Positions 3,001-26,846 of a stretch of DNA of 64,000 bases are shown piece by piece (position 1 is the stretch's first letter; each line of letters opens with the position of its first letter). Under the pieces are notes generated by a model that worked only from the letters and a program-made list of their open reading frames with translations, made no database searches and was not told the origin of the DNA. The DNA lies in contig OZ020257.1 in NCBI GenBank assembly GCA_963971285.1, positions 15,700,602-15,764,601 of the forward strand, in the 5' to 3' direction. Made by a program: the position numbers and the translations under genes. Source of the DNA: Astropecten irregularis. Lineage: Eukaryota; Echinodermata; Asteroidea; Paxillosida; Astropectinidae.

Positions 3001-6000
3001 GTAAACAGTACAATGTCCATAGCATTTGGAGGGCACGTTTTTCACAGGATGTTGTTTAACTTCCTACAATCGGAGCAAGGTCAAGAGTCAAACTACAAAA
3101 TGTTCATCCATTGTCCATGATGATTCCTGACCCAGGAAAATCAATCATAATGAGAACTGTGATTCTGTAAAAAAATAGCGCTAGGCCTACGTACAATTTC
3201 ATATAGGAAACAAGATGTGGGGTTTTGCACTGCGGTTTGGTAAATAATTGTAATCACAGATTACATACCCTCATTCATGTCATTCATTCACATGTACAGT
3301 ACATGTATATGCATGATGTGTAAGGTCAAGGAGTCTGAGATGATCTTTGGTGTTGAGATGATCTCATCACGGAGATGATTAATTCACAGATCATCAACGT
3401 CAGAAAGTCCATGCAGTACACACAGATGAACTACATGCACGACTGTATGCTTATAAAATGCTTCATGTTCTAAATAGGCCAATAGGCCTATAGGCCTACA
3501 CTCCCTACAGTATGTGTTAATTTGTACAGTGTAGGCCTAAAGTATGTTTTAAGCATGTACATGTACAGTGCATGTACATGTACAGTACATGTACCTTTCC
3601 CAATATGACAAAACATTTTGCACATTTCCTCCTGAAACAAATAGGGGCCTAGGCTACATGATGGTCCTATCCCTAGTATAGTATATATGGACAGCTAGTG
3701 TACACAAAGTACAGTGGTTTGTATACTAAAAATGTGAAATAAATATGTGTATTACTGTATGCATGAGTTCACAATGTACTACGGATATTTGTTGTCACTG
3801 AACTGAATGACACTGAACACTGGTGTATTGTCAATTGTTATACTTTTTTAGCATTAGAAATGATTCATCAATTCCAATCTGCACGTGAGTTTTACGCACA
3901 TTGTTGTCATGAATAAAATATTACTGTTTATGCATACATACACACATTGATTATTTACTTAACATCCTGTAATATGTTAAGTGCACTTGTACCGGTATAC
4001 ATGGAAATGTATGAGGAAACTGCACTGATATAAAAAATGTCTGCCAATTTCCTTTCAACTGCTACATGTACATTTACACAGTGGAGATGTGTCATTTGTG
4101 GCTCCAAATAACATGCCAACTATTTTCTGTTTAAAGAAAACAGAACAATTACATGTAGGCCTGCAGTTTCATATTCCATTTGATTCTCTTTCACAATGCA
4201 ACTGACTTTATACTTTTGTACATTATAATATTTTTGTAAAAGTTATGAAACGTAATCAGATATCATTCAGCAGGCTTTTCAATAGGATGTACATGTGTAC
4301 CATTTTTCCCATCTGAAAGCAGAAAATCTTTGATTTTCAAAGAGTCCTATTAAAAAATCCTGGTAGGCAAATAAACCATTTTCGATTTTGGTTCTTGTTC
4401 TTTACAATGCCTCAACTTACAAGTAGCATTATGGATACCGAACAACTACAAATTTTGCATACAAGTCTAAATGACCATGGATAAAGAAAGAAAGAAAATA
4501 GGCCTACTGTACATGTACATAGGTACATGTAGCACTTCACCAAAAAACCAAACCCAAGCCCTTCACAGGCAAGGCAAGAACCAAATTAAGAACATATCAA
4601 GCATGCAGAGTGTTTATGCAATATCTGGCTAATCCTGATGAACCTTTTCCCATACGGCTGTATGAAGTGAATAATATACATACAGCAGTGTAAGCCTATG
4701 TACTTTCCTTTTCCACTTTATTACACTGCCAGACACCAATTCTAAATAGCTTAAATCATATTACCATCATGGCTACCGGACTGCTATCGTTAAATGCGTT
4801 TTACGCCTGCATGTCTGCAAGGTTTTATTTTTACAAGCTCACAGACCATATAAATGTGAGGGTTGACTATATCTGTACAGTTACAGTCGATAGTGAAAAT
4901 TGTATGCACATTGATTGTAGGAATGCATCCATCATTAATTGTTCAGGCTCTTGTAATAAATATTACATAACTTCTAGAAATTATCTAATTAACAAATTAT
5001 GGCAGAGATTATGGATCTAGAGATCTATATTCGAATGGTCTACATTTCGGGATTTCCAAGGTTTTGCCTCAAATTATAGAGTCAAGGCTGAATTTAGACG
5101 TCATCTACAACTGAACGTGTTCTGCACATGTTCCCAACTCTTCAAACTACATGTAAAATCTGAAAATGCGATGCAAACCTTCAGCTTGTGATAAGAAATT
5201 CAATTTGTAACACTTTCACTTTTGCATATAAAATTGTGAACATTAAAACACAAAGAAGCATACAACCAAAATTAACAAATAGAGAGTATTTGAAATCTGA
5301 GCAAAATGGAACTCCACAACAGAATTGGCAAAACCTTGCCAACATTTACAATGTCAAGTATGTAGTTCAGTCAGTCCTTGTACAGTTGGAAGGACTGTAC
5401 ATGTAAATGAATTGAATAATAGAAGGTCACAGAGTACAGCAACACATCTTGATTTCAACATCAGCAGGTGAAAATCTGATTGATTCAGGATGTATAGGAA
5501 TCTTCAGACACCTGCTATTTGCATATTACCGACATATGCAAAGTATTTTCCCAAGACACCCAACAATCCAAGGAACAAGCAAAGCCTTTCTTTTCCTCCA
5601 GCAAAAATCCTGAGGCTGAACATGCTGAAGGGGGTATAGGTCAATGCATATATATCAAGGGTAACATATTGTACAGGTGTGTGCACCAAACACTGGCTAT
5701 AAAACTTACCCGTTCCATTTCCACAAAATCTTCATCGAGCTTGGTCTTTTCGGCACCGCCGATCTTTTCGCTCAAGTACTGCATGTGTAAAAGACAAAAA
5801 TTGAAAAGAAAGAAGAATTTTGTTTAAAACAATATTCATTATTAATCAAATTTGAGGGAATACAAAATCCAAAATTGGTGGTTACAGAATACAGGGACCC
5901 TTTCAAATATATGCCGGAAGTGCACAGAGAAGATATGAGAAACGCATTGTGGAACAGTTTGTGCTAACATTTTGTGTACAAAATCCCACAGGCAGGCTAT

Positions 6001-9000
6001 CCACGAAAGGGACTACATGTATGATCACATTAATTAAATGAGCTGTATTTTCATTTTATGCGATTTAATCAGTTCGCCTTGAGCAGCGAGAAATTGGACA
6101 GGAGAGAGGGACGTGAGTATACCGAGGTTGGACAGAAGAACGTCTAAGGCACGCATCATCAGGGCTCCATCACCTAAAGGTGTTCACCCCCCTATGATGA
6201 GGCCAGGGTTTCTCCACGGGCTGAGCTCCTTGTGCCAGTCCAGAAACCATATTAGGACCAGTGATATCAATCCATTATTAAACCACACACATGACACAAA
6301 TTCTACCCACTCCTCGGGTTATATCCCAATTACACCGGCATTTAGGGCCTACTTAGTTACAAATTTAATTGAAACCTACAGTATTTCAGGTTTGCAGTTT
6401 AACGCTTATATGATCTACATCATGTAGCTACAGATGACAAGGCTATGACAGCTGTTGGCCTTCAATACATAAATCATTGTAATATTATGCTCATATTGTT
6501 ACAGCATACACAGTACATGATGCAATGAGAATGCAGGTCATACATACATGTACTCTGATTACAGGTGTACAGTATATCATTGCATGTTATAACTCCATTA
6601 AAAATAGAGAAGAAAAAGTATGACAAACATCTGGTTTATAAATCTATCATAAAATGTATGGTTAAAAAAACTACTGAATCCAGAGAACGAGGCTTTGTTG
6701 AATGTTTTTAAAACGACTTTCAATTTTTTAAAATGTTTTCATGGCTTCTAACGAACAAAACGATCAAAGATTATTGACTATTTGAGACACCACCAAGATA
6801 GGGCTGGATAGCTCGGTTGGTAGACCACCAGTCAGTACGGTATTCCGGGTGGTCACAGGTTCGAATCCCGCTCCAGTAAATTTTTCTTTGTTCCCCTTTC
6901 AACTTCTTTTATTTTCTGTTAGAAATACAAAACCTGCTCAAGGATTCTGCTGAATTTATGTCTCATCAAATTGTTCTGACAACAATGAACGCAGTGCATG
7001 TGTGAAGAATAATTCTATAGGCAATAAAAATCAATTATTGTTAAATTATAAACATTGTGATTTGTGAGTATGTACAGTGCATTTGAAACTTAAAAAATAA
7101 AAAATAAACAGTGCATTTGAAACTTAAAAACTAAAAAACAAATTAATAAACCTGCTGCAAATACATGTAGCTCATCAATCAAAACAATGACCTGGGCTCT
7201 ATTTCATAAAGAGTACTTATAAATAAATGTTCAGTAACTTAGGAACAATTATTGTTCCTAAGTCCGAGATAGGAATATTCCTAACTTTTATGAAATAGAG
7301 CCCTGAAATATAAAAATGCTCCTGCAGAGTTACATGCAGGATGGCTCTACAGATTCTGAGAATGGGGGAAATTAAAATAACAATGGCAGAGTGACATCAT
7401 TACTCCACATAATATGGTAATTTCCTCCCATTGTGTGATAATATCTATTGTTCCTGCAACATGTGGTGTGATATCAATACAGAGCACAATTTGCAATCAG
7501 TAAATGAAGAATACATTGGTTCCCTGGGTACCGGCTAAAATTTCTACGGAACAGCAAATGAGTTCCCTGCATGATAACAATAGGTACACCCAACTTAACA
7601 ATGATCATCCATGGATACCGGTCACATTTGGCATGCCTGTTTAATCAAAACAATTATCTCTAGTTCTGATTGAAAAGGAGCTTATGTTGCTCAGATGGCC
7701 TGGGCATGCTCTTATCAATAGATCTAAGATGGATGCTCCACAATTTGCCTTTCAGTTCAGCTTACACAGTAAGCATGTTTGTCTAACAGTGTATCAAAAT
7801 TTAAAAACTAATTACTTTAAAAATTCAAATTTCTCCTTTGTTAATATCATGAACACTATGTAGAATGTTTGCAGAAACACCACATATTAAACTGTTTTCC
7901 AAAATGTAAAATCTAATTGCTTTAAAAATGTTCCTTCAAGAAAGATCCTGCTAGGATCGAAACGTCAGGCCCGCCCCACTGGAGTTCCTTCCTCCATGTT
8001 CAGATCAAACTGCTTTCAGATCATAAACCACTTTCAGATCATCACAAACCGCTTTCAGATCATCATAAACTGGTTTCAGAATAAAACATCATAAACCGCC
8101 ACATACAATACATAATGTACATAATACATGTGTACTGTACTGTACATGAACTAGGAAGTGAAAATAACTCTAAAAATAAAGTTGTGCCTTTCTAAATGTA
8201 CAGCATAAACAGGCCTGAGCGTTATTTGACCAAACAGCCAAAATAATAGAACATTTTCATTTTATGTCTTACCTGGTTTGCTTTGCTATACTGTTTCTTC
8301 AAGCTTGGGAAAGGCATGGTGGAGACAATTCAATGTTCACAGTTTCAATATCAAGTATACAGTGCACAACTACAACTTAGGCTCCCTACTTAACGTCTGA
8401 ATTGAATGGTGGCCAGTCAGGGTTATAAGTGGCCCAGACAGAGGAAGTGTGCTGGCTTGGTGCTTCCAAGAGATAAGAAAATGCTTATTATCAGCGAAGC
8501 ACGTGGATATTAGGAGGATGCTGACATACATGTACATGTATACTGTCACCTGTACACATGTATGTATGCCATATTATGTACATGTATGCCAGATTTGCGT
8601 CATCAATCATGTCAATAGGTTTATCAATACCTGGGGATTGATTTGTTACAACGATGCCATAAATTGACTAATTAAGAAATGAAGTGGATAAGAAATGGAA
8701 AGAATTAATTAATATACATGTACACTGTACATGTTCCCATTGCATAGTCAATATTCATGTCTACTAAGCATTGTACTGGTATGTCCAGAAAGTACATGTA
8801 AATTGCTGGAATTGTGTGTAGTCTGTGTAAATAAACTTGTTTTCTACATGTACAGTATGCAAATTGTAGGCCTACCAATTGAAACAAGCTACATGTACAT
8901 GTACATGTAGCTACCTGTATGATATTCTACCTACAGGTATCTGCAACATTGCGAATATAAAGGGTGCACAAAAAGTAACTTCCGTTGATTTTGACGCCCA

Positions 9001-11802
9001 ACCCCTCTAAATCTAATCGGTTTGGGGTGATATGAGTAGTATGAGTGTTTAGAGCACATCTTAAGCTGCATTTTGATGCCCCACTTGATGCCAAAGACCT
9101 AACACAGTTCAATGCACACAGCATTGTTTGTCAAAAGGTACAAAACCAAAAGTTGCACTTTTAGGTATACAGTGTGTAGCTGTGCGTAACCCATTGTAGA
9201 CCCAAACAATATCGCCCTATGCAATATAGCGCATGGTAAGTTCAACCTGGATTTACATCTAACAAAAATAAACAAAGTGTAAGAGTGGCTCAGCAAACTT
9301 CTCACGTGATCTGTAATATTCCAACCCAGATTTTGTACACAATTTATTTGATAGATTTCCTCCACTGTGGTCATGGTGGTAGGTACATGTACAATTGTAC
9401 ATGGCTGTATACAATTGAGGAAGTAGCCACAACTACATTAATTTTGCCTTAACACTTTCATTGCAAAATCCAAGCCTGTAAGGAATGGGGTAATATTGGA
9501 AATGGCAGCGGGACTGTGACATTCAGCCCGAGACCGGGGCAAGGATAGACCAATCTATCCATGGAGCATATTACACACAAGCAACACAATAAGGATCAAT
9601 GCAGATCCTGCTTTGTTTATCATCCCAGGCAAGGAGGTACATGTACTCAATGACCCAACCTTCACCCAATCAATACAATTGACTAACGGGAACACTTATT
9701 TTTGGTCATTATATGTGCATGTGTTTGTGTACAGGCATTTAAAAAAATCTTCGATAAAGATCCTGCTAGGATCGAAACGCGTCAGGCTGGCCCAAGCACT
9801 TTATATAATAAATTTCAGGTCACTATTTTGGTTGATGAGCAGTTTGCAGCAGTTTACTACAAGTTTGTATTAAAAAAAAATCATAATTGGCAATCAATGA
9901 GTAAAGAATATTTCAGGTGTACATGTACGTGAATTGTATGGAATATTCAGAGACCTGCATAATAGCAGGCATGCAACTTGGACTTTACAAAAAAGAGGAA
10001 ATTCCAATCTTTACCACACTTTGTACAGTGTTTTTCACTTTTCAATGGCATAAGAGTGAAGTGAAAAAAAGAGGAAATCAGCTGATCAGAGGAAAAGTTG
10101 CATGCCTGTATTAGTTAAATGCACTGATTATGTTTTGTTTTGTTCGTAGGGCAGAAATGAGAATTGTTATTCCAAAATGCTAGTCTTTGTTCAAATCCGC
10201 TGTAGACACTATGAAACAGGGATGTGAGTTCAGATACCTGTCTTCCCCAACACAGTTAAACAGTGTATTCATTACATCTGGATACAGGCGCCAATTTAAT
10301 AATAAACCCTGGACATGCTGGATGACAACCGACAAGGTTGAGGTTGAGTGAAGTAAAGGTGAAGTATTAAAAGACGAAGGGGAAGGGTTGAATCATGGAT
10401 CAACTAGGAAGGGAATGGCCTGGGAGACGGCAGATCTATGTTCTGAGAGATTGACTGTAAGGGAATTGTCTAGGGGAAGGGGTTTGGTCACTCATTGGGA
10501 AGGCAGTTGGGGAGGAGAGGCTGGGTGAATGGGAAGGGAATGGCCTTTATGTGATTTGGCTGACAGTGGATGAAAGGAGGGATTGCAACAATGACTCACT
10601 GGAGAGGGAACAAGCAAGGATGTGGACACGGGTGATTGGGAAGAATAAAAGGGCAAGGGATAGAGGTCGATTTTTAAACATTTTAAAAAATCCACAGACT
10701 AAAATAATTTCACATTCTGTGAGACTGAAATAGTGAAAGTGAAAGATGTATGTAACTCCCCAATAACTTTGTTCACAATCACTTAACACAGGCATGCAAC
10801 TTGGACTTAACAAACGAGGACGTCCCAATCTTTACCATACTTTGTACAGTGTACATGTCTAACTTTTACTTTTCAATGGCATTTAAGAGTGAAGTGAAAA
10901 AAGCTGAAATCAGCTGATCTGAGAAAAAGTTGCGCGCCAGTAAACATGAAAACAGACAAAGTGTAGGTAAATGTTTCTAATGTAAGTAGGATGCTGAATT
11001 CTTAACAAACACTCTTCATTTTATTTTTAAGCTTCTAATTTTTCTCCAATTCAAAACTCAAAAGTTTAAAATGTTTAACCTTTCGTCTGGTTTTGAATTA
11101 GGCCTACAGAAAAAATTGTTAAAGCTTAAAAATCCTTAACTAAAGAGTAAAGTCAAGATCAACCTTCCAAAACCTTGCAACTTGTTGGCAATTGTAAAGT
11201 TCAGGACACACCGTGTTATTATCATAAGAGGAATGACTGTGAATACATTTCGTTACGCATCCAGCACGTGTAAATGATAAAGCACAGCCACAGCCTGGGA
11301 CGGTCCCGAGCCCGAACTTTACACTTACAACCACCAACTGTTTCACCAGTCCAATCTGCTTTGTTTTGAAACACAAATTTACCAAAAGACAAACTGATTT
11401 AATCATAATTCCTAAATGAATAATAAATTTCACCCCACGATTTATTCAATCAAAAAAAGTAAAATTGCACTGCAGTAAACAGTATCTGAGTATCAATTTA
11501 CAAAATCAGTACACGACACGTCAATAAGCCTTATCGCAAATACCGCCTGGTTGATTTTGGACAATAGTCGAAAGGCACTGTGGGAAGGGAAAAGGTACAA
11601 AATATGCCCCTTTTTCCTTCCCATGGTGCCTTTCCACCATTGTCCAAAATCAACCAGGCGGTATTTGCGATAAGGCTTATGAGACGGAATATGTAATATC
11701 ATAACTGGTTAATACAAAAACGACCTGTGTATCTACGCAATTCGCAACCGAACCTACCTGATTAGTCTTATTGAACTGCTTTTTGAGTCCTGCGAACGAC
11801 AT
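1..11802 (-). CDS. SH3GL: Endophilin-A (SH3GL family), 5' part only; gene continues beyond the left edge
   Basis: Endophilin-A is a membrane-bending BAR and SH3 protein that acts with dynamin and synaptojanin in clathrin-mediated and fast endocytosis. Seen here on the minus strand are two alternative first coding exons (11758-11802 and 8273-8317, 15 codons each) and a shared exon 2 (5710-5778, 23 codons). All are in phase 0 with GT donors and an AG acceptor. Exon 2 encodes SEKIGGAEKTKLDEDF, close to the vertebrate endophilin-A sequence just after the N-terminal helix. The first exons encode MSFAGLKKQFNKTNQ or MPFPSLKKQYSKANQ, both matching the family's amphipathic helix 0. The rest of the BAR domain and the SH3 domain are not in 1-5709 and must lie beyond the window. 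The assignment to endophilin-A rather than -B is firm; which vertebrate paralogue it matches cannot be said, since an invertebrate probably has one gene. Confidence 0.92.
1557..1843. repeat. Three-copy tandem repeat, unit about 95 bases
   Basis: Units begin at 1557, 1653 and 1748. Each contains CTACAGTATTGAAGATGAAG (or one change) and ends with TGTATGACCCCCCTGATGAC. The copies differ by a few substitutions and a 3-base insertion, so the duplication is fairly recent. No conserved open frame runs through all three. Confidence 0.85.
2496..2558. repeat. Low-complexity C/A tract
   Basis: Alternating runs of C and A form a nearly pure two-base tract. The short open frames over it are products of the composition. 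Confidence 0.8.
3554..3593. repeat. ACATGT/TACATG self-complementary cluster
   Basis: Overlapping copies of TACATGTA form a run able to pair with itself. It is the densest of many such runs in the left 20 kb (for example 1290-1315, 2243-2284 and 8890-8912). Confidence 0.7.
5710..5778 (-). CDS. SH3GL: Endophilin-A exon 2 (start of BAR domain)
   Basis: The exon is preceded by a CAG acceptor and followed by GTAAGT. It carries 23 codons containing SEKIGGAEKTKLDEDF and ends in EMER. Human and worm endophilins have very similar residues at this position, immediately after helix 0. Both upstream first exons end on a codon boundary and join in frame. Confidence 0.93.
6801..6905 (+). mobile_element. 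tRNA-derived SINE (head and short tail)
   Basis: The A box TAGCTCGGTTGGTAGA is at 6809-6824 and the B box GGTTCGAATCC at 6858-6868, correctly spaced for an internal RNA polymerase III promoter. The anticodon arm does not fold as a proper tRNA (GACCACC and GGTGGTC enclose an 18-base loop), and only part of the acceptor stem pairs. It is followed by a T-rich tail. It is therefore a SINE head and not a working tRNA gene. Confidence 0.7.
7194..7303. mobile_element. Fold-back MITE with GGGCTCTATTTCATAAA termini
   Basis: The ends GGGCTCTATTTCATAAA and TTTATGAAATAGAGCCC are inverted copies, and a second inverted pair (AGGAACAATTATTGTTCCT) sits in the middle. At 110 bases, with no coding capacity, it is a non-autonomous DNA element. 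The superfamily is not clear because no clean target duplication is visible. Confidence 0.75.
7944..7971 (+). repeat. Hairpin motif copy 1 (hammerhead-like 3' half)
   Basis: GATCCTGCTAGGATC forms a 6-base-pair stem with a 3-base loop and is followed by GAAACGTCAGGCC. The motif recurs at 9759, 26847, 55569 and, inverted, 55463. It is followed at 8006-8095 by about four 21-base units with the core TTTCAGATCATCATAAAC. Confidence 0.75.
8006..8095. repeat. Short tandem repeat, 21-base unit
   Basis: About four degenerate copies of CGCTTTCAGATCATCATAAAC lie just downstream of hairpin motif copy 1. They are probably the 3' tail of the same dispersed element. Confidence 0.7.
8273..8317 (-). CDS. SH3GL: Endophilin-A alternative first coding exon 1b
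   Basis: The frame reads MPFPSLKKQYSKANQ, then the donor GTAAGA. The start codon context (CCACCATGC) is close to optimal. It encodes the same kind of helix 0 as exon 1a, shares LKKQ and the closing NQ with it, has the same 15-codon length and the same phase, and lies 3.4 kb downstream in the same gene. Having its own ATG, it is most simply an alternative first exon with an internal promoter upstream (coordinates above 8317), not a cassette exon. No in-frame AG acceptor use is needed to explain it. Confidence 0.88.
9759..9870 (+). repeat. Hairpin motif copy 2 with downstream repeat body
   Basis: GATCCTGCTAGGATC at 9759-9773 is followed by GAAACGCGTCAGG. The next part (about 9796-9860, with TTTCAGGTCACTATTTTGG and GCAGTTTGCAGCAGTTTACT) is repeated in diverged form at 15783-15845, where a hAT element has inserted. 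Confidence 0.75.
9966..10109. mobile_element. MITE with CAGGCATGCAACTT termini, copy 1
   Basis: The termini CAGGCATGCAACTT and AAGTTGCATGCCTG are perfect inverted repeats of 14 bases. The interior matches the second copy at 10789-10940. There is no coding capacity. Confidence 0.8.
10789..10940. mobile_element. MITE with CAGGCATGCAACTT termini, copy 2
   Basis: It is in the same orientation as the copy at 9966 and shares most of its length, including TTTTCAATGGCAT and AGAGTGAAGTGAAAAAA. The right terminus has decayed to TTGCGCGCCAG. Confidence 0.75.
11525..11680. mobile_element. Long perfect fold-back element inside endophilin intron 1
   Basis: The left arm starting ATAAGCCTTATCGCAAATAC and the right arm ending GTATTTGCGATAAGGCTTAT pair over about 50 bases with very few mismatches, leaving a short centre. 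It lies 77 bases downstream of the exon 1a donor site, close to the bidirectional promoter. The near identity of the arms points to a recent insertion. Confidence 0.85.
11758..11802 (-). CDS. SH3GL: Endophilin-A alternative first coding exon 1a
   Basis: The frame reads MSFAGLKKQFNKTNQ and is followed directly by the donor GTAGGT. There is an A at position -3 of the start codon. The peptide corresponds to helix 0 of endophilin-A, which inserts into the membrane and helps the BAR dimer curve it. This is the promoter-distal-most exon and faces CHAF1A head to head, so transcripts starting here probably use the shared CCAAT-rich promoter. Splicing to exon 2 keeps the frame (phase 0). Confidence 0.92.
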
Positions 11803-12323
11803 GATGATTTCTGATGTTGCTCTCCTTGACGATAAATGTTTTTGGTTTTATTCGGCTCCAATCAGGAAGAAGCGTCGATTACAACTTGGCTGGGAAAGGT
11901 AACCTTATTGTCAAAATTCGGAACCACAATCGTCACACAGTGGGGCGTTCACGTTGTACGGCAACTATCGCGATGTTGATGAAGTCACGTTTTTTCTCGA
12001 CTAGATGAAGAGATTTGATGATGTATACTAGCTTGCCTGTGATTGGTCATCCGCAACCCTTTCTTGTTTACACGACCAATGACAAATCACTTACTTCCAA
12101 CGCGTGAGCCAAAGTAATTTTTCAAAGCTATTCTCATTGGATAAAAATGTCCATGTTCCAAGAGGTCAACCAATTACTATGCGGGTTTCATATGTCCGCC
12201 GGAATAGATAAACACCAATATTTCCCGCCAAGTTCGATTGGGTCTGGGTTTGGGGATTTTGCACACTAGATCGGTCCCGTTTTTTACATTGTTTGTGCCC
12301 TTAAACGTCGGCTTAATTCGACT
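11803..12323. promoter_or_regulatory. Putative bidirectional promoter between endophilin-A and CHAF1A
   Basis: These 521 bases separate the start codons of two divergent genes. Between 12042 and 12241 there are six CCAAT or ATTGG pentamers (12042-12046, 12076-12080, 12136-12140, 12170-12174, 12215-12219, 12237-12241). At 12221-12229 lies TTTCCCGCC, an exact match to the E2F consensus TTTSSCGC, about 95 bases upstream of the CHAF1A start codon. No TATA box is evident. Multiple CCAAT boxes with an E2F site are typical of S-phase genes, which suits CAF-1. Binding and transcription start sites are inferred, not shown. Confidence 0.7.
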
Positions 12324-15300
12324 ATGATAGGTGAATATTCTGCCGAGGACGGGATAGGATCAAAAAAGAGGTCCCTCACTTCTCCCGGTAAGTATTTTTA
12401 AGAACATTTTAACAAGAATAAATATCTGAAATCGTCGTGGACGGTCGTAGTGTAGTACTAGTAGCCTAGGCCTAATCTGTAATGTATATTGCACACAAGG
12501 CATTCGGAATTCTGCATTGAAATTTGCAGGCAATGTAACTTAAAAGTTAATGTTGTTGTCGTTGGACCATCGGTCATGGATTTTGAGTTGTTAGATTGTA
12601 TGAAACTGTATTGTCTAAAAATGTTTTAATTGTTTTAGTTAGGGCCTAACTTTGTTAGGCTCATGATGAAATAAAATTAAAAACCTGACTTGACCGTCAA
12701 CAAGTTGGCCTGGCTAGGCCCTAGGGCCTCTGTCTACGAAGAGTGTATTTTATTTTGGCCTAACAAATTAACAAGAAACAATTTAAGAATTAAGAAAAAA
12801 AACCATACCCAGTCTACAAAAATCAAAGCAGCATATTCACCCACAATTAAATTTAGCTGCACGTTAACTGCTGCAATGTAATGGACAAATGATTGAGTTG
12901 CTTGGTGCAGTGTACTCCACCAAACGTTAATTCTAAATTTGCAATCAAGAACAACTGACCTTATTTTCCTTAATCCTGGATATTTTAATACAAGCTTTGT
13001 GACTGTAGTGTGGCCTTTTGTGGGGAAATTGAGCAGATGTTTACTTATTAAAGAACAAAACAAAAACATTTTGAAATATTTATGGATGTTTAGGCCTAAC
13101 GTTAGGCTTATTCCGTATTCATTCCCCTTATTCTTATTTCCATTTAGCCTAATATAAATAAAGTTGTTTTAAATAGTTTTGTTTGTTTTTATTTAATTAA
13201 GGCCTAGGCCCAGGCCCTTTCAACGGGGTTCAGCTGACTGAATTCAGATGCATTCTGTCAGTGTCACTCATGTTGTTGAAAAGAAAAATACATATTATTA
13301 ATCTGAATAAAAGACAGTTTGACAGTATTCATTGTTAGAACAAATTTCCTTATATGTATTTTATTTGGTATTCTTTGCTGGACAGTTTTGACTAAGTAAG
13401 TTATAATTTATTCAGGAGAAGACATCTTGGGAGAAAATTTCAGTTTAAATTAAAATATCAAAGAAGTGGAGAGAAAATTTAGACAGACTGTTGGAAACCC
13501 TAAAGATATGAGATAGCCTGGTCTAAAGAACTGCTACGTCCGAGCAGCCTGACCCGATTCTAATTTTAGATTCGCTTAGCAAGTAATTTAAGGAAATTCT
13601 TGCCACTAAACTGGGAACGGCAGCTGGCCAAGTTGTAACTGTCAGCTGTGACTAATAATAATACTTGTTTTAGGATTGACAAGTACGTGTACAAATAATC
13701 TTTAGGATGTCAAATTAATTACCGAGGCTTTAGTGCTTTACTTGTTTTTTTTCCAATTTTCAAGTTTAAATAAAATAAAGAAAGTAAATAAGAAAAGTAA
13801 ACATCAGTTTCTTAACAAAATCTAAACTTGTTTCTCCCCTGTCTTTGATATACAGCACTGTATGAACTTTCATAAGAAATCGTTAAATCTATCAATTTTC
13901 TTTTTACGTTTTTTTCTTAAATACTTTCTTTGTTAGCAATACAAGTTTAACGATACTGCGTTATTTGAATCAGTGACCTATGAAATGAATATACAGGCAT
14001 TCAGATACTTCAAATACTAAAAATAAAAATACAGTCAGTAAATGAAATTTATACAATCATATCCAGAGGTCTTGCCTTAAAATAAAATCTTGTCTTTCAA
14101 TTTGCCTTTTGACAAAAGTAAACAATGCACTTGACTGCCAGGAGGAATATTACGTTAAATCAGTGCCTTCATTAATTAAAAATTTGTGTGTACTTTTTTT
14201 TATTATAGGAGCAGTGCCAAAAACTGAAAGATCCATTATGAGTCCTCCAAATAAAAAGTTAAAGCAAGGTAAGAGATACATTCATTGTCATTAAAGTACA
14301 TGTATACAGTATACAGTAGGTAGCATGGTTACAACTATAATTGGTGCAGGTTTACTCTTAAAATGCAGTTGAAAAAAATATAAGCCCACCAAAATAAAAT
14401 CTTTTTCCTTGAGGAAGTTTTCACAAAGATCCGGTGTACTGCTCGATCCTTTGTTGTTGAAAGTGCCACTCCTTGCCTACGGCATGATAGCGATCAGGTC
14501 TGTCATGCTCACTCGTGAGCGTATCTCACTCAATGTTTGAAACCATACATAGGCCTGTAGACACAGAAGTTTTTTTCTAAAAATAAACAAATAATACACA
14601 TTGATCAAAAAGTAGCATTGCTTAACGTAAAGTAATTTTGCAGTTTTCTATAAATTTAAAGATTGAATTTTCACACCAAGGTACGGAATTCAAAATTTCA
14701 AATTTGTCTAATACATTGCTTCACGCAAAATTGTACCCTATTCAACTTGTCAAGTGTCGGCAAAATAAGTACATGCACATGGAGTTTATGGTCTAAAAAT
14801 CCTTCCCTTATTCAACTTGTCAAATGTTGCCAAAGTGCATGGAATTTATCTCAGCATTGCTTGTCTGAAAATCTTGATTTTTACTTGCGAGTAAAAATCA
14901 AGATTTTTAGACCAAGAGAAAAACAAAATCATACAAACTTACGGCTTTCTGTAAAGTTGAAGATATCAGTCGCTGTCTCTCCAAAGCCCAACCAATAATG
15001 CTTGTTTAGCAGCCTGGCATTGCTGCTTCTGTAGATGATGTTATAATCTCTAGTGGCTCAGCAAAAACAGTTCCACAGAGTGGAGTCTAACACAAACTCC
15101 TCACTTCCAAGTTGCAACACGGTTCCACAATCTAAGACACAGCTACTGGACACGTACATGTATCCATTCATGTACATTTGGACTATAGTGGACTGCCACT
15201 CCCTACCCCGAGTATATATCTGAAAACTTCAACATTCAGATGCAAACTAAATAACTCTTCCATTCTGTTTTTCCAATGCTGGCTGGATTCACAATAAAGT

Positions 15301-18300
15301 TGAAGAATTCCAGAGGGTTTTCTTTGCCATTGTTCAACAGAACTAGTGCATAAATTTACCATGTTGACAACAGAACTTGGCTCAGGTTCCGCATAATCTT
15401 ATCAACTGTGGGTTGTAGATTGTCACAAGTAAGATGAATATTCATCAGCAAAGAATGGGGATGTGGAAAATAGACTTCAATGCATGGTTGTGGATTCATT
15501 GGCAGAAATGTTAAATCAGTGCATTTAGTCATTTACTAAAGTACAAAAATACAATCATCGGGGCTTTTATTTCATTAGAATTTAGTAATCATGAATCTTG
15601 CTGAATAATTGTTGCCAAATAACTAAGAAAGAAGACTTTTTGTTAAAGTCAAGTTAGGAACTATAATTGATTAGGGAACCTACATTCTTCATATAAGTCC
15701 AAGTCTTCATATGTTTCCATGAAATACTTATTTGCTAAGTAATGTGAAATTACAAATACTGACTTGTGCCCTCTTTACACTAGGCCTTTATATATTTCAG
15801 GTCTTTGTTTTGGTTGACAAGTAGTTTGTAGCAGTTTATTATTACTAGGCCTGGGCGATTAACTCGATTAATCGATTAATCGCGATTACATTCCTGTGTC
15901 GATTACTCGATTAGTAAATTCTGAACTACTCGATTAATCGTGCCAGCGCGATTAGTGCCTTCGAGTTGCGATTAATTCCATGAGTTACTACTATTCTCAG
16001 TCGATCAATAGCCATACCGTGTGTGTTGCATGGAGCAGCTGCATAGACTTGATGACAAGTCGTTAGACATTCGTGTTTTGTCCATCCGTCCGTCAATATC
16101 ATGCATCGTTCGTATAGTGAGGCAACGTAATCTTGATTCAATAGGGGTCGAGGGTGTATATGTACCGCGGTCGCGTCCCCGCATGTTGGACATTATGCAG
16201 GACGTACACAGTGTAATGTGAACACGAACACCGTACCCCTGGTGTAGCGATACAATTACCGACTTGATATCACGTCTGCTGCTGCACGTGCACCGGATGC
16301 CCGCCCAATTGTGACAGCACCATGACAACATTTTGAGATTACACTGTAATTGGCCAGTAGCCCTTCTAATAATACTGCCTTATATGGTCAACGTGGATGA
16401 GGCATGAATGAGGGCTATACCATTTCGCTGTTTATTGAGGTACATTTAGTTATGTTGCATTTTCAATAAATACTATTTATCTCACTTAGTAATAAAACGA
16501 AAGGTTGTCGGGACTTGTCGCACACGTGAGTTATTGGATACATACAGTTTAAACGTGTCGGGGTGAATTTTTATTCAAGCCTGACAGCTGACAACGAAGT
16601 TTTTCTTAACTTCTTAGGCCCACGTATTTACAATTGATTCGGCTACCATGGCCGGCAAGCTTGGCGCATATGGCGCGATGGCATTCAACTACTCGAGTAC
16701 AGACGCTACTCGATTATACGATTACTGTGAATACTACTGTATCGTATCGTATGATAATCGTGAAGTGAACATGTGGAGTAATCGTGAAATGTAAAATAAT
16801 CGCGATGTGTTTAGTAATTGTGAACTGTGTAATAATCGTGTTCACTGTTCAGCCTACTATCGTTGACTTGTACTTGCATGCACGTGTGTACGTACGTGAG
16901 GCAGTAACTGCATGCCTTGTCGGCCACACTCCGCGAAATTACCCTACTTTACTGAAGGGATACCAATAATTATGGACGATATTAGCTTCACGAATTTTGC
17001 ATTATACCTTATCAGAACAAAAATGGCATTGCTCAATGCCTCGGAAATCGGAACTGATCGCTGTTGAAACTTGTAAGAATCAATGCATTACGCTAGTGCA
17101 GTTTACTGCAGTGCCGCATATGATGAACACAAGGTACGTGCTGCTTGTATAGTCACTTCCGGGTAATCGCGATTAATCGATGAATCGCGATTATTTCCTC
17201 CGCGATTAATCGATTAGTGAAAAGCACTAATCGCCCAGGCCTAATTATTACTTTACATTTTTACTACTAAAACCCCGGATCTACATAGTTTACATAAGGT
17301 TTTCAAAAGAATCTGCATTTTAAGTATACAAATAATGTAGGCCTACATGGTACATATTGCACGTTTTCATATTTTTAGTTCGCTTCATACAACTGGTACA
17401 TTAACAATACCAAGCCTGAATCTCAGCCTCCCAACCCCCAAAGGGTATTGAGGCCAACTGAAAGGGCACAGAGGCCACTTCCAATCTGATGACTTGATGC
17501 GTTTTCCACCCATTTGTAGATGGTGCTCACCAGCGTACCAAACGCTTTCAATGACAAGGCATTTTTACATACAATGATAGTGCTTGAATAATTGGTAAAA
17601 AAAAAAATGTCCAAGACACAGACCCCCATGTATTTAAACCCCTGCTTGTTTTAAAGCAAATAAAACAATCCCAAAGTTTCAGTTTGATCATTTTGGTTAA
17701 TTGTGATAAATTAAAAACAGACTTTGCTTTGATTACCAAACCTTGAAATTTGAAAAGCGTTTAGAATTTGTTTTTGTTTCTGTGATTTTATTTATGAAAC
17801 AAAACAAAACATCTCTGTTGTCACTTGTCAGTAATGTCAGAACAATGGAGTCAACAGGCAAATGTCAATTTAAGGTTACACCTGTTTCCTGTGGGATTTA
17901 ATTAGGTTCTGTGTCTAAATATCTTGTTGCATGACTCACAGTTTCTGACATTTCATTCAATGGCACAGGAGAATATAATACGTGCTGGTTCAAAATAATA
18001 ACTTTAGTTGAGTTCTTTGAAGATCACACAGAATGAAGGGGAAAAATAAATAAAATATATCCACACAAACTTTCATCCAATGACATGTTTTGAACAAAAA
18101 CAAATCAGTTCATTGCTTATAATACATTTTTCTGTGTCATGCTGTACGTGTCTTACTCACTTTGTATGTCTTTAGTGTTGAGTGGTTACTGCATACTTCA
18201 CATGTAGGCTGAATAAGCTATCCTATAGTATATTTTTAGCTATAAATACTCATCCAAGAGAAAAGCTTTTTAGACACTTTTGCTTTGTTCCAATGAATCT

Positions 18301-21300
18301 ACATGTTGATATATACATATTTATCTCATAGGCATAAGTATTTTCATTACAGAGCAAAATATTAAGACTCAGTTTGTTGAAATATTTTGCTATATTATAT
18401 TTTTCACACTATAAACATGATAAAAGCTAAATTTACATTGCATCAAAAAAGAACTAGCAAGGTTACCTGCACGTCAAATGTATTTTTAAAATCAATTTTT
18501 TTTTTTAAAAATTCATGTGTCCTAAGACTCAAGTAGCAAAACACATTTTACTGCTGAGTGTTCATTACTAGGAATATATAAACATGTTCTTTTGTGGTAA
18601 TTGAAGTAATAAAAAAAATATGTAGAAAGAAGAAAAGTTTTGGCAGTTGGCCCATAGGAAGAAACCAACCAAAGACACATACTGGAAACAAAGAAGAATT
18701 TCAAGACAATTGAAGTGAACATTACCTGTTGCATCCTAAGCAGGCGTTTGACCGCGGCTTGCTTAAGTGTTATGCCCATAACGATGTATGTTGCCACCCT
18801 GTCCATCCTTCTAGAAGTAATTGTCTCTGCCCCCCGATTACATAGATGTATAAACAGTTACACGGTGTGCTGGGATCTTTGAATTCTCCCTCTACTCGAG
18901 GATATTGCCAGTTTCCTCTTGTGATTCACACGGCTCAATTACAAAATGAGTTTACAATTGGTTTAGCAGTTGTCAACCAGTTGACATGTGGGTTTGCCAT
19001 GTGCAAAGATCGTCAGCCCGTTGGGGTGGCTTGAAATTAGAGCCGTTATAGCGTCATAACAGTTGCCAGCGATGAATGGGCATCGGGGAATTTAAAGGGG
19101 ATTGGCTGTATTGACTTCTAGAATAACTTTCAAAATATCTAAGCTGTAAATTGAATTCTAATCTATTTTCTCAAATTTGATAACTGCCTGACAGTAATAC
19201 AGTATGAAAAGAAGTTTTCAAATAGAGAAAAAAAGGAGAAAATTCAGCCCAAACCAATAAAAAAAAAAAGTAATCATCAATTAATACTACTCTGCCAGTC
19301 AATGCTTCTTTGTTCACTTTTCAATGACTTAAATTACTTTTAAAAAGAAGGATAAAAGAATGCTTTCCAATAGAAATTGAATTAAGTTACAAATAAGTGG
19401 AGCCATAAATAGAGTACAAGGACTGCCAATCACTCAAGCAGCATGACAATGTGGCAATACATGTAGTACATAAAATGTGTACGTGCTTCACATCTCAGTG
19501 AATTACTTCTCAAACTGTTTATATTCTTGTTCCACTCCTAGCCCGTCTACCCTTCAAAGTCATCTCAACCCCATCACCCAACCGGCGCTCTGAGTCTCCA
19601 GCAACTGACCCACTGCCGTCCAAAAAACGCAAGCTCTCTGGCCCAGAAAAGCCTCCCGCCCTCAGCCAACCAAAGCTGAAGATCAGCGATGCCAAGAAGT
19701 TCTTCCCCAAGAAGACCTGTGCCTCTCCTGTCAATCCCAAGAAGTCCCGGGTTGAAACCATCAACCTGGAGCCAGAGGTGACATCAAGCTGCGAGGAACA
19801 AGAAACTGGCAGGGCGGTGCCTACGTCCACCACCCCGAAAAGGCCTCAGTCCTCCAAGCCGAAGTGCTTGGACAGCTTCTTGCAGACCACCCAGCAGCCT
19901 CAGGTGTCTACATCCGATGGCGTCATCGACATCTCGGGAGATGAAAGTGATACACCAGCACCTGAGACCAGTGACATCAAAGAACCTCCCTCGGCAGACA
20001 ATCCTGACCTGGAAGCATCTGTCACAGGGACTGTGACGGCAGACGAGAGACCATCATCCAATGAGCGGAACAACCAAGCTAGTCCAAGTGAAGAGGAAGT
20101 GTTCATCATTACCGTATCAAGTAACAAGGCAGATGATATCGAAGAGCTCAAATCAGATTTGCAGCCTGACCAAGAAGTCAGTACAGCAACAAGTGCAGAG
20201 GACTCCAGTGCCGACTTCAAACTCAACTACGATGCCGACTCGGAGGAGGATTGCGAAAATGAGGCTGTAGTGGACCTGTCCAAGGACTCAAAGATGTCGG
20301 ATGGATCAAGCGAGGCTGAGAGCTCAACCAGCGGCCCGGCATCAGCCACTCCAGTCACTCCATCGGCAGCCTTAAAACCTGTCAAAAAGGTGATTTCATC
20401 TTTGCTATCTCATGAGATAATTGTGCAAGAATATTTATAAATTTCCTGAATTTGCTGCAGATATCATATCCGCAGAACCACTTCTTAACTTTTCAGATTC
20501 TTAAAAATAATTTCTTTTTCGATGTTTTGAACAAGCCTTGAATATTTCCTGAAAGCAAAATTAGAAATTTTAAATTGACATTTCCAGGCAATGGCAATGT
20601 GACTCTGCTCCAAATGTATTTTTAAAGCGTGGTGAAGGTTGCAGTTAACCCAATTATATTTTGCCAAACCTTGTTTTCTTGCTTACAGACTCCACTCTCC
20701 GCCAAAGCACAGAAGAAGTTGGAGGAAAAAGAGCAAAATAGAGAAGCTAAGGTAATTCACCATTTAGAGCAACAAATAACTATTTTCCAAATTTTCCATT
20801 TGTATAATATGCACATTTATCGTTGATAGGCCGATTCTTTTCCAAGTAGAATAGTCAGAGTTTCTCCTGAAACTTAAACAGTGTACATATTAAAAGTGAG
20901 GTGTCTTTTGTCTGGTTTGACAAACTTCAGCTCAAACTACGCATGGATAAAAAACGCAAACTGGAAGAGGAAGAAGCAGAGAGGAAACGGGTGAAGCTGG
21001 AGATGCGGAAGAAGAAGGAAGACGAACGAGAGGAGGCGAGGAAGCAGAAGGAGGCGGAGCGAGACGATAAGAGGAAAGAGAGACAGCAAAAGAAGGAGAT
21101 GGAGGACAAGGAGAAGGAACAGAAAAAGGTGGCCAAGGAAGAGGAGAGGAAGAAGAAACAGGAAATCACCGAGTAAGTTCAGGGTGTTTGACCTCCGAGG
21201 AGCTATTTTCCAGAGATGTATTTGTCTGAACAGTCATCTAAATCTACGTTGCTTCAAACGCCAAATTTCCCACATTACTCCGAAGTCAAACTTTGCCTGA

Positions 21301-24300
21301 TTTGGTGACATCCCATCTCACAAAAATAAGAAAAAGAAATTCTATGTTTTTCATCATTTTTAAATTTTTGTTGTTTTGTTTATTAGTGCCAAGATGGAAG
21401 AAAAACGCAAGAAGAATGAAGAGCGTCTACGTCAAGAAGATGAGAAACGACAACAAGAGGACGAAAAGGTATTGGTGCTCATTCAGATGTTGGTGGTTAT
21501 AACCTCAGTGACTAGGTGCTGGTGCAGTATTCTGGAGGTCACGGGTTCACATGTCCCGCTTCAGCCATGCTTTCTGTAAAGCCAGTTTCTTCTATTTCAT
21601 GAAATTGTTTCAGTCAAATTACGTGTTTTTTTTCATTCTGGTTTTTACCAACAGAGGGAGAAGGAGGTAAAGCAGAAGAATTTTTTCAAGAGTTTCTTCA
21701 AGGAGGCAGTGGTCCCGGTCAAGAAACCCCAAGAGAAGTCCTGTGGCTGGTTTGCCCCGTTTCAGATAAAGGAGAACATGGTCCTGGCTCCGCTGATCCG
21801 CGGCGAGAGAGTCCCTCAAGATTCGGAGGAATTTGAAACCGCATTCAAAAACCAGGTATGTTGCAGTTACAACGACAATTTGGACAACTCGATGAAGACT
21901 GGAGGCGGTGCATCTTGCTGTGCGAGTCAGGAGTATCACACTAATAGGCTTTCCATTTTATGGTTGTTGTGCACAGGATTGCAGCTCACTCTATCTTGAT
22001 GTCTTGAGAGGGAAGTCGTATCGTGCAGGGAAGATGGGACGAACCCCTCAAGACCAGCCGGCAGGAGTTGATTGTGACAGCCGGACGGCCACACCCTCGG
22101 CTGAGATGGTGCAACAGGACAAGTGAGTGAAAACAACGAGCCAGAATTTATATTCCCCATTTGCCACAGGTCTTTTACTTTGGGAAGACATCGTTGAGAC
22201 AACAGTGCTTATTGGTGACATCAGAAGTAGTGGTTTTACAAAACCACTACCAAATTGCCGTCAACATTTGGTCCGAATTCAGTTTCAAAGCCCTGTCTCT
22301 GTAAAGCCGTGCAAAGTTTCTGGGATGTGATTCCAGTGATCAACTGTTCAGTTTGATGCAAGATTTGGTATAAGAGAGAAGTAATTTTACTTCATCACGT
22401 GTACGTGGTCTGGTACTTTGCAATCATAACTTGAATGTATTAGCAATCTTTTACTCGCCCATTTTTTCAGGGACTCTCAAGGTGTGGAGATTGTTTGCGA
22501 GGTGGCTCCCAAGAAGCTGGTCAAGATGAAGTGCAAGCTGCTTCAGTTCCACGAGAACTACCGGCCTGCCTATTACGGAACCTGGAGACGAAAGAGCAAG
22601 GCCATCAACCCTCGCAACTATACCAAGAAGGATGAGGTAAGTAGTTGGGAAATCATGTCATGTATAAAACTAAAACAAACTGAATGAAAATCATCAATTC
22701 GTCTCTTGGGCAGGTTTTGTGATGTACCCACAAAAAACACCAGTTCATGTCAGTTGATTGCAAATTTGGTCTGGTTTTCTGTCCTAGAACCTTGTGGAAT
22801 TCTCTCAATAATATCACTGACTTGTTGGTTTTGTTCAGGATCTGTTGGATTACGACGAGGACAGCGATGAGGAATGGGAGGAGCCTGGGGAAAGTCTCTC
22901 ACATTCAGAGGTAAGAGAAATCAGCGGGAAGCCCTGTCTCTGTCCCAGTGTCCCTGTGGTGGTATCCCTCACCCTTGAGGCTGAACCCAAGCCATCTAAA
23001 TCTAAAAATGTGTCATTCTGTCTCTTCGTTGTCTACAGGGAGAGGAGGATGCTGAGGATGTTGAAGAAGGAGGTGATTCTGATGATGGATTCTTTGTCCC
23101 TCACGGATACCTCTCAGAGAGCGAAGGATGCGAAGATGAGGTGAGTCAAGATTCATAAATTGAGATTTATGAAACCAATTTGAACATGTTTTCATGAAAC
23201 AACCAACGTCATTTGGTTTTTGGTTCTATTGTGCGACCACTTGAATGATTTCTGATGTCAATTTTTGTTTTTTTAGGAGGAGGTTGAGAACTGGAAAGAG
23301 AGGCGAGCAGCCAAGGCCAAATCCTGGGAGGCTGAGCTCAAACGTCAGCAGGGAATCCTGAAGCCCATCCTGGTCGGCTGCGTCTGGGAGACCAACCCCT
23401 CCGGCTCTGCGGCCAGCAAGACGTTGGATGCTTACAAAATTGTCACCCTGGTTACCGTTCCCATAGATACGCGAACCAAGAAGCAGATCGAGGCATCCGC
23501 TCAGAGAGAGGAAACTGATGATTCCTCATCTAAGTCGTCTGCCCATGTCAAAATGCCCGGGACTGAGGGAGTTTCTCTAAAGAGACCCGTGCCAGCAGAA
23601 GGTAAGTTTGATGTGTATGATTGAACCAGTCTAGCAAAATATCATTGATTGGAGTTGTAAAATAATGAATTGTTTCATATCCAACTATTATCTTCAAGCA
23701 AAAAAAAAAGCTACAAAAAAGGACTACATTTTATGGCTCTACATATTGAAAAACATAGAATTGATGCCTTCAGAAGCAGAAACTTTATATATTTCATCAA
23801 TTAGTGAAACATAATTTGGCCCTAATCCTTTAAGCAAAGAATGATGATCATTGTGGGCAGAATTTAGCACAGCAAAGATTTGCACAGCCATGAAACCCTG
23901 GTTTTCACAAATTGCTTACTATTTCCCTTTTTTCCCCTCAGCTATGCCTGATCTGATACGTCTAGTCCATGGAAACATAGCGGGTATCAGGACACTGCAG
24001 CGTGAGTTCAGAGAATACTGGCGGCTGAGAGATATAAGGAAGATGTCTGAACGATCTGCTCCCATATCGGAAATGCCATCCACTACCTCAACTGGAGCTG
24101 AAGCCAGTCAAGAGAAGGGCCCCTCGGAGGGGTCTGAGACATCAGGGGCTGTACCTAAGGTCCAGCAGTCAGGTGGACCTGAGGGAGATGTAGCACCTGC
24201 TGTTGACACTGAGCAGAAGGATGTACCATCTCTAAGCTCACTTGTTAAGGATGTCATCACCCCTGGAAGTGAGGGAGGGACTCCGGAGTATAGCAGACCC

Positions 24301-25620
24301 ATACTAACTTCACTGAATACCACCATAGGAGATTCTGTTGAGTGCTCCATCTCCAAACGTCAGCTTATGCTCACGATCACTGCCATTGCAGTACGCGAGA
24401 GGCGACCAGATCAGTTCCCTCGGACTTGTTGGTACGTCCACCAGCACCTTCTGGAGAAGCACAATTTGCAGAACTTGCCGATACCTAGCCAGTGGCAGAA
24501 CATCACCAAACCGCAGAAGGCAGTGCGTGCAGAGAGCCCACTGGTGGGGTCGTCACATTCGGCACTGGGTAACCGGACCCCTGTGAGTTATGCTGCATCA
24601 GTATCAGGGGGTCGTGCCATGGATATCAACCAGGTACCACATGTTGCTACAGGGCACCAGTCTGTTGTCCATCCAGCATTGTACGGATCCGCCAACTCGT
24701 TAATACATGTACCCCAACTTGCTGGATCACCTTATCAGACTCCTGTAAGACTACAAGGAGGCACAGTGGCACAGAATCTGGCCATGGCAAGAGCCAATGC
24801 AGCTAATTCACTGAGCGGTGTGGCGGCTCAACAGCCCGGAGCCACATTCCAACCCATACAGCTGCAACTTGCTAACGGCATGTCGGCCTGTGAAATCATG
24901 CAGAGGCTGTCGGCTACGGTCCCCGTGCAGCATCAAGGAGTTCTACCGGGTCTCCCCGCATCGCCGCAAGCCCACATCTTCAGTCCAGTCACTTCTAGCG
25001 ACCAGATGCACTACTTGAACATGCTCAGTAAAATGGAGAGTAAACCTTACCCTTCATCTGTTGCTGGGCTGTCATCGGCCTGTCCCGTTCCTCAAACCGC
25101 TGACTTGGGTCAGGCCGTGAAGGTACCACGTACAAGCCCCAATGATATAAAATCCATGCTGTCATCCCAGGCAGCCAAAGCATCAACAATCAGACCTAAA
25201 ACAGCCACCTCCACCACCTCCAACATTCAGCCTGATTCAAGCTCCCAGACCCTCGACATGCAGGCAGCACCAGGCAGTGCTGTGGCCAAACCTCCGACGC
25301 CTACCCCAAACTGCCAGGAAGAGCAGCAGCAGGCGCCCAGTAAAAAGGTGACAACTCTGAAAAGTTTCTTCAATGTCAAACCCGTCTCCAAACCTGAAGC
25401 CAACCAAACTGTCAAAATGCCCAAGACTGCCGGGACAAGCAGCAATACCGGTAAAAATACAGAAGTATCTGTAATTGAGACGCCATTACCCGCAGCTGAA
25501 ATGGTTGTTTGTGACGAAAAGGTCCAGTTGCCACCTACCATTGACGAGGTAGTTGAAATACAGATAGAAAATACCCCAGAAGAAAAGATGGAAGTGGAGG
25601 TCAGTCAGACAGGGGTATAA
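12324..25620 (+). CDS. CHAF1A: Chromatin assembly factor 1 subunit A (CAF-1 p150), complete
   Basis: CHAF1A is the large subunit of the CAF-1 histone chaperone, which deposits H3-H4 on DNA at replication forks through PCNA. Coding exons: 12324-12387, 14209-14268, 19542-20389, 20689-20751, 20931-21172, 21387-21468, 21655-21855, 21977-22122, 22471-22636, 22839-22910, 23039-23140, 23277-23601, 23942-25620. All have GT-AG borders, phases agree throughout, and they total 4050 bases (1349 residues plus stop; human has 956). Residues 41-47 are QARLPFK, the N-terminal PCNA-box region. About 325-460 is the charged KER coiled coil. NFFKSFF at 462-468 resembles the second PCNA box. CGWFAPFQIKENMVLAP is at 483-499, and NYRPAYYGTW follows in the exon starting 22471. 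The acidic ED domain (625-682) includes EEWEEPGESLSHSE and DGFFVPHGYL. LIRLVHGNIAGIRTLQREF is at 795-813, and a winged-helix region is near 926-985. The extra length is mostly a low-complexity C-terminal extension. Confidence 0.96.
12388..14208 (+). other. CHAF1A intron 1
   Basis: A plain AT-rich intron between the GTAAGT donor and the TTATAG acceptor. No gene, RNA or clear mobile element was seen in it. Confidence 0.8.
15783..15845 (+). repeat. Older dispersed repeat interrupted by the hAT element
   Basis: CTTTATATATTTCAGGTC and GTTTGTAGCAGTTTA match the repeat body at 9796-9860. The match resumes poorly after 17252. The hAT insertion therefore landed in an existing repeat copy. Confidence 0.65.
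15846..17243. mobile_element. Non-autonomous hAT-type DNA transposon, complete, with target duplication
   Basis: The element starts TAGGCCTGGGCGATTA and ends TAATCGCCCAGGCCTA, with inverted ends and subterminal arrays of ATTAATCG-type repeats. It is flanked by exact 8-base duplications ATTATTAC at 15838-15845 and 17244-17251. Eight-base duplications and TAGG(N)CTGGGCGATTA ends are typical of the hAT superfamily. The 1.4 kb interior has no transposase-like reading frame, so it would need an enzyme from elsewhere. Confidence 0.9.
21488..21590 (+). mobile_element. Degenerate tRNA-derived SINE in a CHAF1A intron
   Basis: GGAGGTCACGGGTTCACATGTCCCGC resembles, in parts, the B-box region of the SINE at 6801, preceded by a weak A-box-like stretch. 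The similarity is visible but eroded. It lies wholly within the intron after the 21387-21468 exon. Confidence 0.4.
23942..25620 (+). CDS. CHAF1A: CHAF1A last coding exon with winged-helix region and long C-terminal tail
   Basis: This single 1.68 kb exon supplies residues 791-1349. It opens with the conserved LIRLVHGNIAGIRTLQREF block. It continues with ISKRQL and RRPDQFPRTCWYVHQHLLE (about 927-960), which match the winged-helix DNA-binding region of vertebrate p150. After about residue 1000 it is a tail rich in Ala, Gln, Ser, Thr and Pro. Near 1258-1269 it reads KKVTTLKSFFNV, with the L-x-x-F-F spacing of a PCNA-interacting peptide but no leading Gln. The reading frame opens upstream of the exon (from about 23851), but the CAG acceptor at 23939-23941 and the conserved start of the block fix the exon border. 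Confidence 0.94.
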
Positions 25621-26139: not shown

Positions 26140-26846
26140 TCTCACTAGTTTCATTGTTTATAATTTTGTAAAAAGTATTAAACTGGCGATTGTTGGAGGA
26201 ATGTTACTTAAAGGCACTTTTCATTAGTTTCCAGTCATATTTTGTGAAATCAAGGGTAGCCCAGATTACAGACTTTAGTTGAGAGTGTAGATATATTGGA
26301 TTTTTTATTTTTATGAGAATTATCGGGGTATTGTAGTGGTTTTTTGGTTTAAAATATTTATGGTAAATGATTTCAACCTGAAGTACATTATAAATTATAA
26401 TTATAGACTTGAAACTTGTTTACCAAAGAAAACAAATATTGACAAGATATTGGTTGTAATATTAGTATACTCTGTAACTTGTTACTTCAATTCAGTTTCA
26501 AGCACATGTACTGTACACTAGTGCTGTTTAAGAATTTGCTATAAACCGAGTAACCAAAATAAGGCCATTATTTAGTTTTGATGTGCCTTTCCAAATTACA
26601 AGTATTATTTGTGAAAAACCCCAAAATGTTTTCTTTCTTGTACAAGCATCCTTTTTTAGCAAAGACTTCCAATCAAAAGTGTGAAATTGTTTCCCTTAAT
26701 ATTATCGTTAGGGTAATTTTGTTAACTACCATTTATTTGAATAACCAACTTATACTAACCCCCCCCCCCTGTTCTGATCCTCTCATCCGTGTATGTGTAT
26801 CTTTACTTGCATGTTCTTGTCCTCTTGTCATTTAGCCTTCCATAAT

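Follow-up and report, generated by a model that had tools for sequence, protein, structure and literature searches.

The question raised by this locus is why an endophilin-A gene (SH3GL) and the chromatin-assembly gene CHAF1A stand head to head in the sea star Astropecten irregularis and are adjacent in human and cattle as well. We analyzed a stretch of 64,000 nucleotides (in the following, the window; positions 15,700,602 to 15,764,601 of the forward strand of contig OZ020257.1, here C21), in which the two genes are neighbors on opposite strands with facing 5′ ends. Their start codons, at 11802–11800 on the minus strand for SH3GL and at 12324 on the plus strand for CHAF1A, are separated by 521 bases, as a preliminary description of the window had correctly stated. 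In our view, this is probably, though far from certainly, an ancestral animal neighborhood over a compact bidirectional promoter, held together mainly by the cost of a breakpoint within it.

The endophilin gene model comprises ten coding exons with nine of nine introns bounded by GT-AG and yields a protein of 343 amino acids. Three of the ten exons are located in the window, all on the minus strand: exon 1a (11758–11802; MSFAGLKKQFNKTNQ; donor GTAGGT), which faces CHAF1A, exon 2 (5710–5778; YLSEKIGGAEKTKLDEDFVEMER), and exon 3 (350–422). The other seven (exons 4–10), read from the window's own assembly, lie leftward, up to 12.8 kb beyond the window edge, with the 3′ coding end at C21:15687834. 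The protein carries a Pfam BAR domain (233.6 bits) and an SH3 domain, and it scored 300.7 bits to endophilin A1 (SH3GL2) versus 99.7 bits to endophilin B1. By sequence, the N-BAR domain, the C-terminal SH3 domain, and the closer similarity to the A than to the B type identify it as an endophilin A. In the whole assembly (475.7 Mb, 168 contigs), for which all match counts are lower bounds, each of the eight matches listed for a 284-amino-acid endophilin query was an exon of this gene. A shorter query gave an additional weaker match on contig C24, whose frame reads like endophilin B when judged against SH3GLB1. SH3GL thus appears to be single-copy in this assembly. Exon 4 (G000:C21:15699978-15700103) lacks BAR residues 67–73 relative to human endophilin A1, a stretch which includes M70 and I71, known for membrane insertion; this is either a genuine deletion or an assembly error. 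Intron 1 also contains an inverted repeat (11524–11595 and 11609–11680) with arms of 72 nucleotides, 93% complementary and 13 nucleotides apart, which looks like a small foldback element.

CHAF1A is encoded on the plus strand. Its predicted coding exon 1 (12324–12387) has a good splice donor and an open frame, with an in-frame stop upstream at 12267. It is followed by a predicted exon 2 (14209–14268) and a predicted exon 3 (19542–20389), which opens with ARLPFK like human CHAF1A. Further downstream, exons lie in open frames at 20871–21173 (CAF1A_acidic), 21580–21996 (CGWFAPFQIKENMVLAP; end of CAF1A_acidic), 22430–22684 (CAF1A_dimeriz), and 23277–23621, an additional exon stretch is found at 23048–23140 (DDGFFVPHGYLSE), and the last exon lies in an open frame at 23848–25617 (WYVHQHLLEKHNLQNLPIPSQW). 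The gene was recognized by the Pfam domains CAF1A_acidic (PF11600) and CAF1A_dimeriz (PF12253) and by two exons matching human CHAF1A chains in PDB, all in order on the plus strand from ~20.9 to 25.6 kb; further stretches align in order with the human protein, whose C-terminal region is a winged helix. The acidic region, the dimerization domain, and the human C-terminal region in this order identify the gene, at the level of sequence, as CHAF1A (CAF-1 p150). For PF12253, one match was listed in the assembly, located at this gene, and CHAF1A therefore also appears to be single-copy. A scan of genome contigs for CHAF1A stretches began with 189 candidates and left a single locus, which belongs to a gammaproteobacterium. 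It was rejected as an acidic stretch in ordinary bacterial DNA after inspection of its frames, and endophilin and CHAF1A probes gave no match below E 0.6 there. None of 15 candidate stretches in viral contigs was retained.

The intergenic stretch between the start codons (11803–12323) has the content expected of a bidirectional promoter. Seven CCAAT boxes are present, counting both strands (first bases at 11858, 12042, 12076, 12136, 12170, 12215, and 12237) compared to a mean of 1.7 after shuffling, and at least seven were reached in 3 of 2000 shuffles. Across 264 kb, at least seven CCAAT boxes occurred in 8 of 2635 counting windows, which are located at four places including the intergenic stretch itself. 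A perfect E2F consensus (TTTCCCGCC; 12221–12229, plus strand) ends 94 bp before the ATG of CHAF1A; it occurs once in the 521 bp, a number reached in 7 of 2000 shuffles, and is one of five such sites in the 264 kb. The CpG observed/expected ratio is 1.15 versus a regional mean of 0.72, and 175 of the 2635 counting windows reach this value. E-box, SP1, ETS, NRF1, TATA, and BANP patterns gave no site between 11500 and 12700. In its motifs, an E2F site and several CCAAT boxes close to the start, the stretch resembles an E2F/NF-Y cell-cycle promoter. CCAAT boxes, E2F sites, and high CpG content are common marks of bidirectional promoters. In human bidirectional promoters, E2F1 and NFY are enriched 6.9-fold and 5.3-fold, respectively (PMC3121118), and NFY and E2F motifs were reported in histone bidirectional promoters of medaka (PMC11676430). 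Also, human CHAF1A is included in a table of genes chosen for promoter binding by RB and E2F1 (PMC9090780) and is marked as a G1/S gene (PMC5453983).

From these features a mechanism can be proposed. CHAF1A would probably be driven as an S-phase gene by two factors, E2F bound at 12221 and NF-Y bound to the CCAAT boxes, and NF-Y would also hold the CpG-rich core open for both genes, including the SH3GL transcript from exon 1a. As the start codons are 521 bp apart, transcription start sites within the first exons should be closer still, unless further non-coding exons exist upstream. On the SH3GL strand there is no ATG from the SH3GL start to 12050, and on the CHAF1A strand there is none from 12192 to the CHAF1A start, which suggests that the start sites flank a core at ~12050–12190. 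A breakpoint within ~0.5 kb of such interleaved promoter would harm one or both genes, and this, not cooperation between the two proteins, would be the main cause of retention.

The adjacency would date from before the split of this lineage and the vertebrates. The preliminary description had named the human genes as divergent neighbors, with SH3GL1 on the minus strand. Adjacency and the direction of CHAF1A agree with a human super-enhancer table, in which one chromosome 19 interval is assigned to MPND as 'downstream', to SH3GL1 as 'in gene', and to CHAF1A as 'upstream' (PMC9409227). With CHAF1A 'upstream' and MPND 'downstream' of the interval, CHAF1A has to be the neighbor of SH3GL1 and to point away from it. 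In another source, both genes appear as candidate drivers of a single peak in 19p13.3 (PMC2873534), and a cattle gene list gives the order UBXN6 (with its name garbled in print), CHAF1A, SH3GL1, STAP2, and MPND (PMC7668599). The surroundings of the pair differ in the sea star. An exon-wise search of the assembly, which split domains can escape and in which STAP2 and FSD1 were not sought, gave no match on C21 for PUB (as in UBXN6), Saf4_Yju2 (YJU2), or RAMA (as in MPND). Matches to PUB were found twice on C14 and once on C16, matches to Saf4_Yju2 on C17 and C24, and matches to RAMA on C16 and C62. The LEDGF domain (HDGFL2) had no match anywhere in the assembly and is therefore uninformative; PDC10_C had no match anywhere in the assembly either. 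With these marker domains of the mammalian block away from C21, the pair seems to have lasted longer than the neighborhood around it.

Several points weigh against a compact ancestral promoter held by breakpoint cost. The gap between human SH3GL1 and CHAF1A is ~2.1 kb and thus wider than the usual 1-kb definition. A comparison of CHAF1A exon 1 with the human protein yielded nothing at E ≤ 1, and the start codon is therefore predicted, from the donor and the open frame. In the 521 bp, one motif like the cell cycle genes homology region (CHR; TTYGAA) is present, which is no enrichment (reached in 1495 of 2000 shuffles), and a looser form of the E2F site is not unusual (137 of 2000 shuffles). The motifs were spotted by eye before counting, which makes the shuffle figures optimistic. 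SH3GL1 is not found in the main text of the report on RB and E2F1 targets (PMC9090780), and in human only the CHAF1A side is thus a listed RB-E2F target, which argues against E2F control of both sides. Finally, adjacency can last through slow rearrangement without selection.

SH3GL also has a likely alternative first exon. Exon 1b (8273–8317, minus strand; MPFPSLKKQYSKANQ; donor GTAAGA) is located in intron 1, outside the shared region and 3.4 kb further down the gene than exon 1a, with which it shares the phase. Its score against exon 1a was 48, while the next unrelated frame reached 17 among 359 stop-free frames of 15 codons in 264 kb that begin with ATG and are followed by GT. Comparison of both exons revealed four identical, five synonymous, and six non-synonymous codons. 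Nine of 15 residues are thus equal, five of them via synonymous codons, which suggests selection on the protein. It likely provides a different amphipathic N-terminus (MPFPSLKKQYSKANQ). The CpG observed/expected ratio around exon 1b is low (0.2 to 0.5), unlike that of the shared region. If exon 1b is used, SH3GL has a promoter of its own.

The serious rival to promoter constraint is passive retention, i.e., a real ancestral adjacency of two separate but close promoters between which no rearrangement happened to occur. We give this explanation a substantial minority share of our belief. The likely exon 1b would make SH3GL less than fully dependent on the shared region, and among 372 putatively ancestral bidirectional promoters of chordates, most of which were lost in vertebrates (PMC6292497), a single survivor would be unremarkable. 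Linkage may also outlast tight promoter sharing, as indicated by the classic head-to-head genes HSPE1 and HSPD1, which have kept their divergent orientation here with 10.9 kb between the first exons located (exon 1 of HSPE1 was not identified). This pair was our only yardstick within the genome; markers for AIRC (PAICS) and SF3A2 were located as well. Exon 1 of HSPE1 was sought only within ~1.3 kb of HSPD1, where two weak candidates were not accepted. Of two Cpn10 matches, the one on C19 was used; the other, on C123, lacks introns, looks bacterial, and was left out. Against passive retention stands that the block marker domains sought gave no match on C21, since the pair seems to have persisted when its surroundings did not. 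Moreover, the 521 bp resemble a single compact promoter whose motifs are distributed across its middle part.

A stronger form of constraint had been proposed in the preliminary description, namely a shared promoter that cannot be split, in which one indivisible element must drive both genes. A shared promoter fits the short distance and the motif content of the 521 bp, and the adjacency is common to mammals, but its inseparability finds no support, and we regard an indivisible element as very unlikely. The likely exon 1b (8317–8273) is located outside the shared region, the human gap is wider, and human CHAF1A is one gene. Human endophilin-A genes, in contrast, number three (SH3GL2, SH3GL1, and SH3GL3; PMC12457278). 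SH3GL promoters therefore work without CHAF1A. The argument that the two genes have no obvious shared job, which was said to point to an unsplittable promoter if the pair is kept across deuterostomes, is weak, as a functional relation was assigned to ~8.5% of 924 human divergent pairs (PMC2871058). The same source finds related partners more frequently among well conserved than among poorly conserved divergent pairs, a point that inclines towards the preliminary description. The least probable explanation is that the genes were joined independently here and in vertebrates, since both are apparently single-copy in this assembly and a second meeting of two unlinked genes in the same orientation would happen in roughly one of thousands of cases (estimated, not computed).

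Beyond the ancestral pair with its compact promoter, a bolder extension seems improbable to us. The promoter might be among the few bidirectional ones held across most bilaterians, tying endophilin to S-phase E2F/NF-Y control in proliferating cells, while the exon 1b promoter might supply endophilin with another membrane-inserting N-terminus to cells that do not divide, such as neurons. If so, an essential shared promoter could persist thanks to exon 1b. Should the pair be intact across bilaterians, it would be a clean natural experiment on what keeps unrelated genes linked, since the promoter is short and clearly delimited, both partners appear to be single-copy, and vertebrates have SH3GL copies that lack this neighbor. 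The exon 1b promoter also offers a handle on how a gene escapes a shared one.

Further features were observed in the window and the assembly. Six neighboring frames from a ranked list encode a TCP-1 chaperonin, a MutM/Nei-type glycosylase, an aquaporin, a Ras-like GTPase, a kinase, and a C1q-collagen protein. The GTPase exon (33858–34100, minus strand; Pfam Ras) is, by our own reading, of the RERG/RASL12 kind. The C1q-collagen frame (61461–62618, plus strand) comprises 386 amino acids, in which Pfam recognized collagen repeats (Collagen, 71 bits) and a C1q domain (C1q, 92 bits). The motif CGTTTCGATCCTAGCAGGATCTTT is found four times on the minus strand (7941–7964, 9756–9779, 26844–26867, and 55566–55589), as two exact copies and two with three mismatches; none would be expected by chance, and it looks like a dispersed repeat. 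In the assembly, contigs C57, C62, C123, C131, and C152 carry AIRC, RAMA, Cpn10, or COX1 in long frames that no stop codon interrupts. They look bacterial, and the assembly thus probably carries contaminant or symbiont contigs. Mitochondrial COX1 lies on C168. A COX1-like stretch with seven in-frame TGA codons on a large contig (G000:C25:9951047-9952018) is probably a nuclear copy of mitochondrial DNA.

Ancient head-to-head pairs are already well known, and SH3GL–CHAF1A adds one case to several hundred. Ancient microsynteny is treated by Irimia et al. 2012. As a promoter unit, SH3GL–CHAF1A was found in none of the main texts and titles consulted, while supplementary tables of surveys may list the pair. 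Neighboring genes share bidirectional promoters in 25% of cases in amphioxus (3,950 of 15,884), 12.83% in mouse, and 7.84% in zebrafish (PMC6292497). One survey of human divergent pairs reported full conservation of 12 in Drosophila and of 9 in C. elegans (PMC2670823). The 924 human divergent pairs mentioned above have gaps below 1 kb and are shared with one or more other species; short divergent pairs are unenriched in fishes and non-vertebrate animals (PMC2871058). By these base rates, unrelated functions are common among ancient pairs of this class. Going by the latter survey, a tightly kept pair stands out somewhat more when it is found in an invertebrate.

In comparison with known systems, SH3GL–CHAF1A resembles the amphioxus pairs defined by cap analysis of gene expression in being 5′-to-5′ neighbors with a short gap and an apparently ancestral origin; unlike there, where start sites were measured, it is known by its start codons only (PMC6292497). 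The same two orthologues are adjacent at human 19p13.3, with CHAF1A pointing away (PMC9409227). There, the mammalian pair is embedded in a different neighborhood, being flanked in the cattle list by UBXN6, STAP2, and MPND (PMC7668599), while C21 gave no match to PUB or RAMA in a search that did not include STAP2. The 521 bp between the sea star start codons also contrast with the wider human gap. HSPD1–HSPE1 is likewise divergent, anciently conserved (PMC2871058), and still divergent in this genome. It differs in that its partners are functionally related and in the much larger distance found here. PRR11–SKA2 was shown by experiment in human cells, whereas SH3GL–CHAF1A is known from motifs; like the latter, it places a cell-cycle gene in a head-to-head pair, and it is reported to be regulated by NF-Y (PMC5372550).

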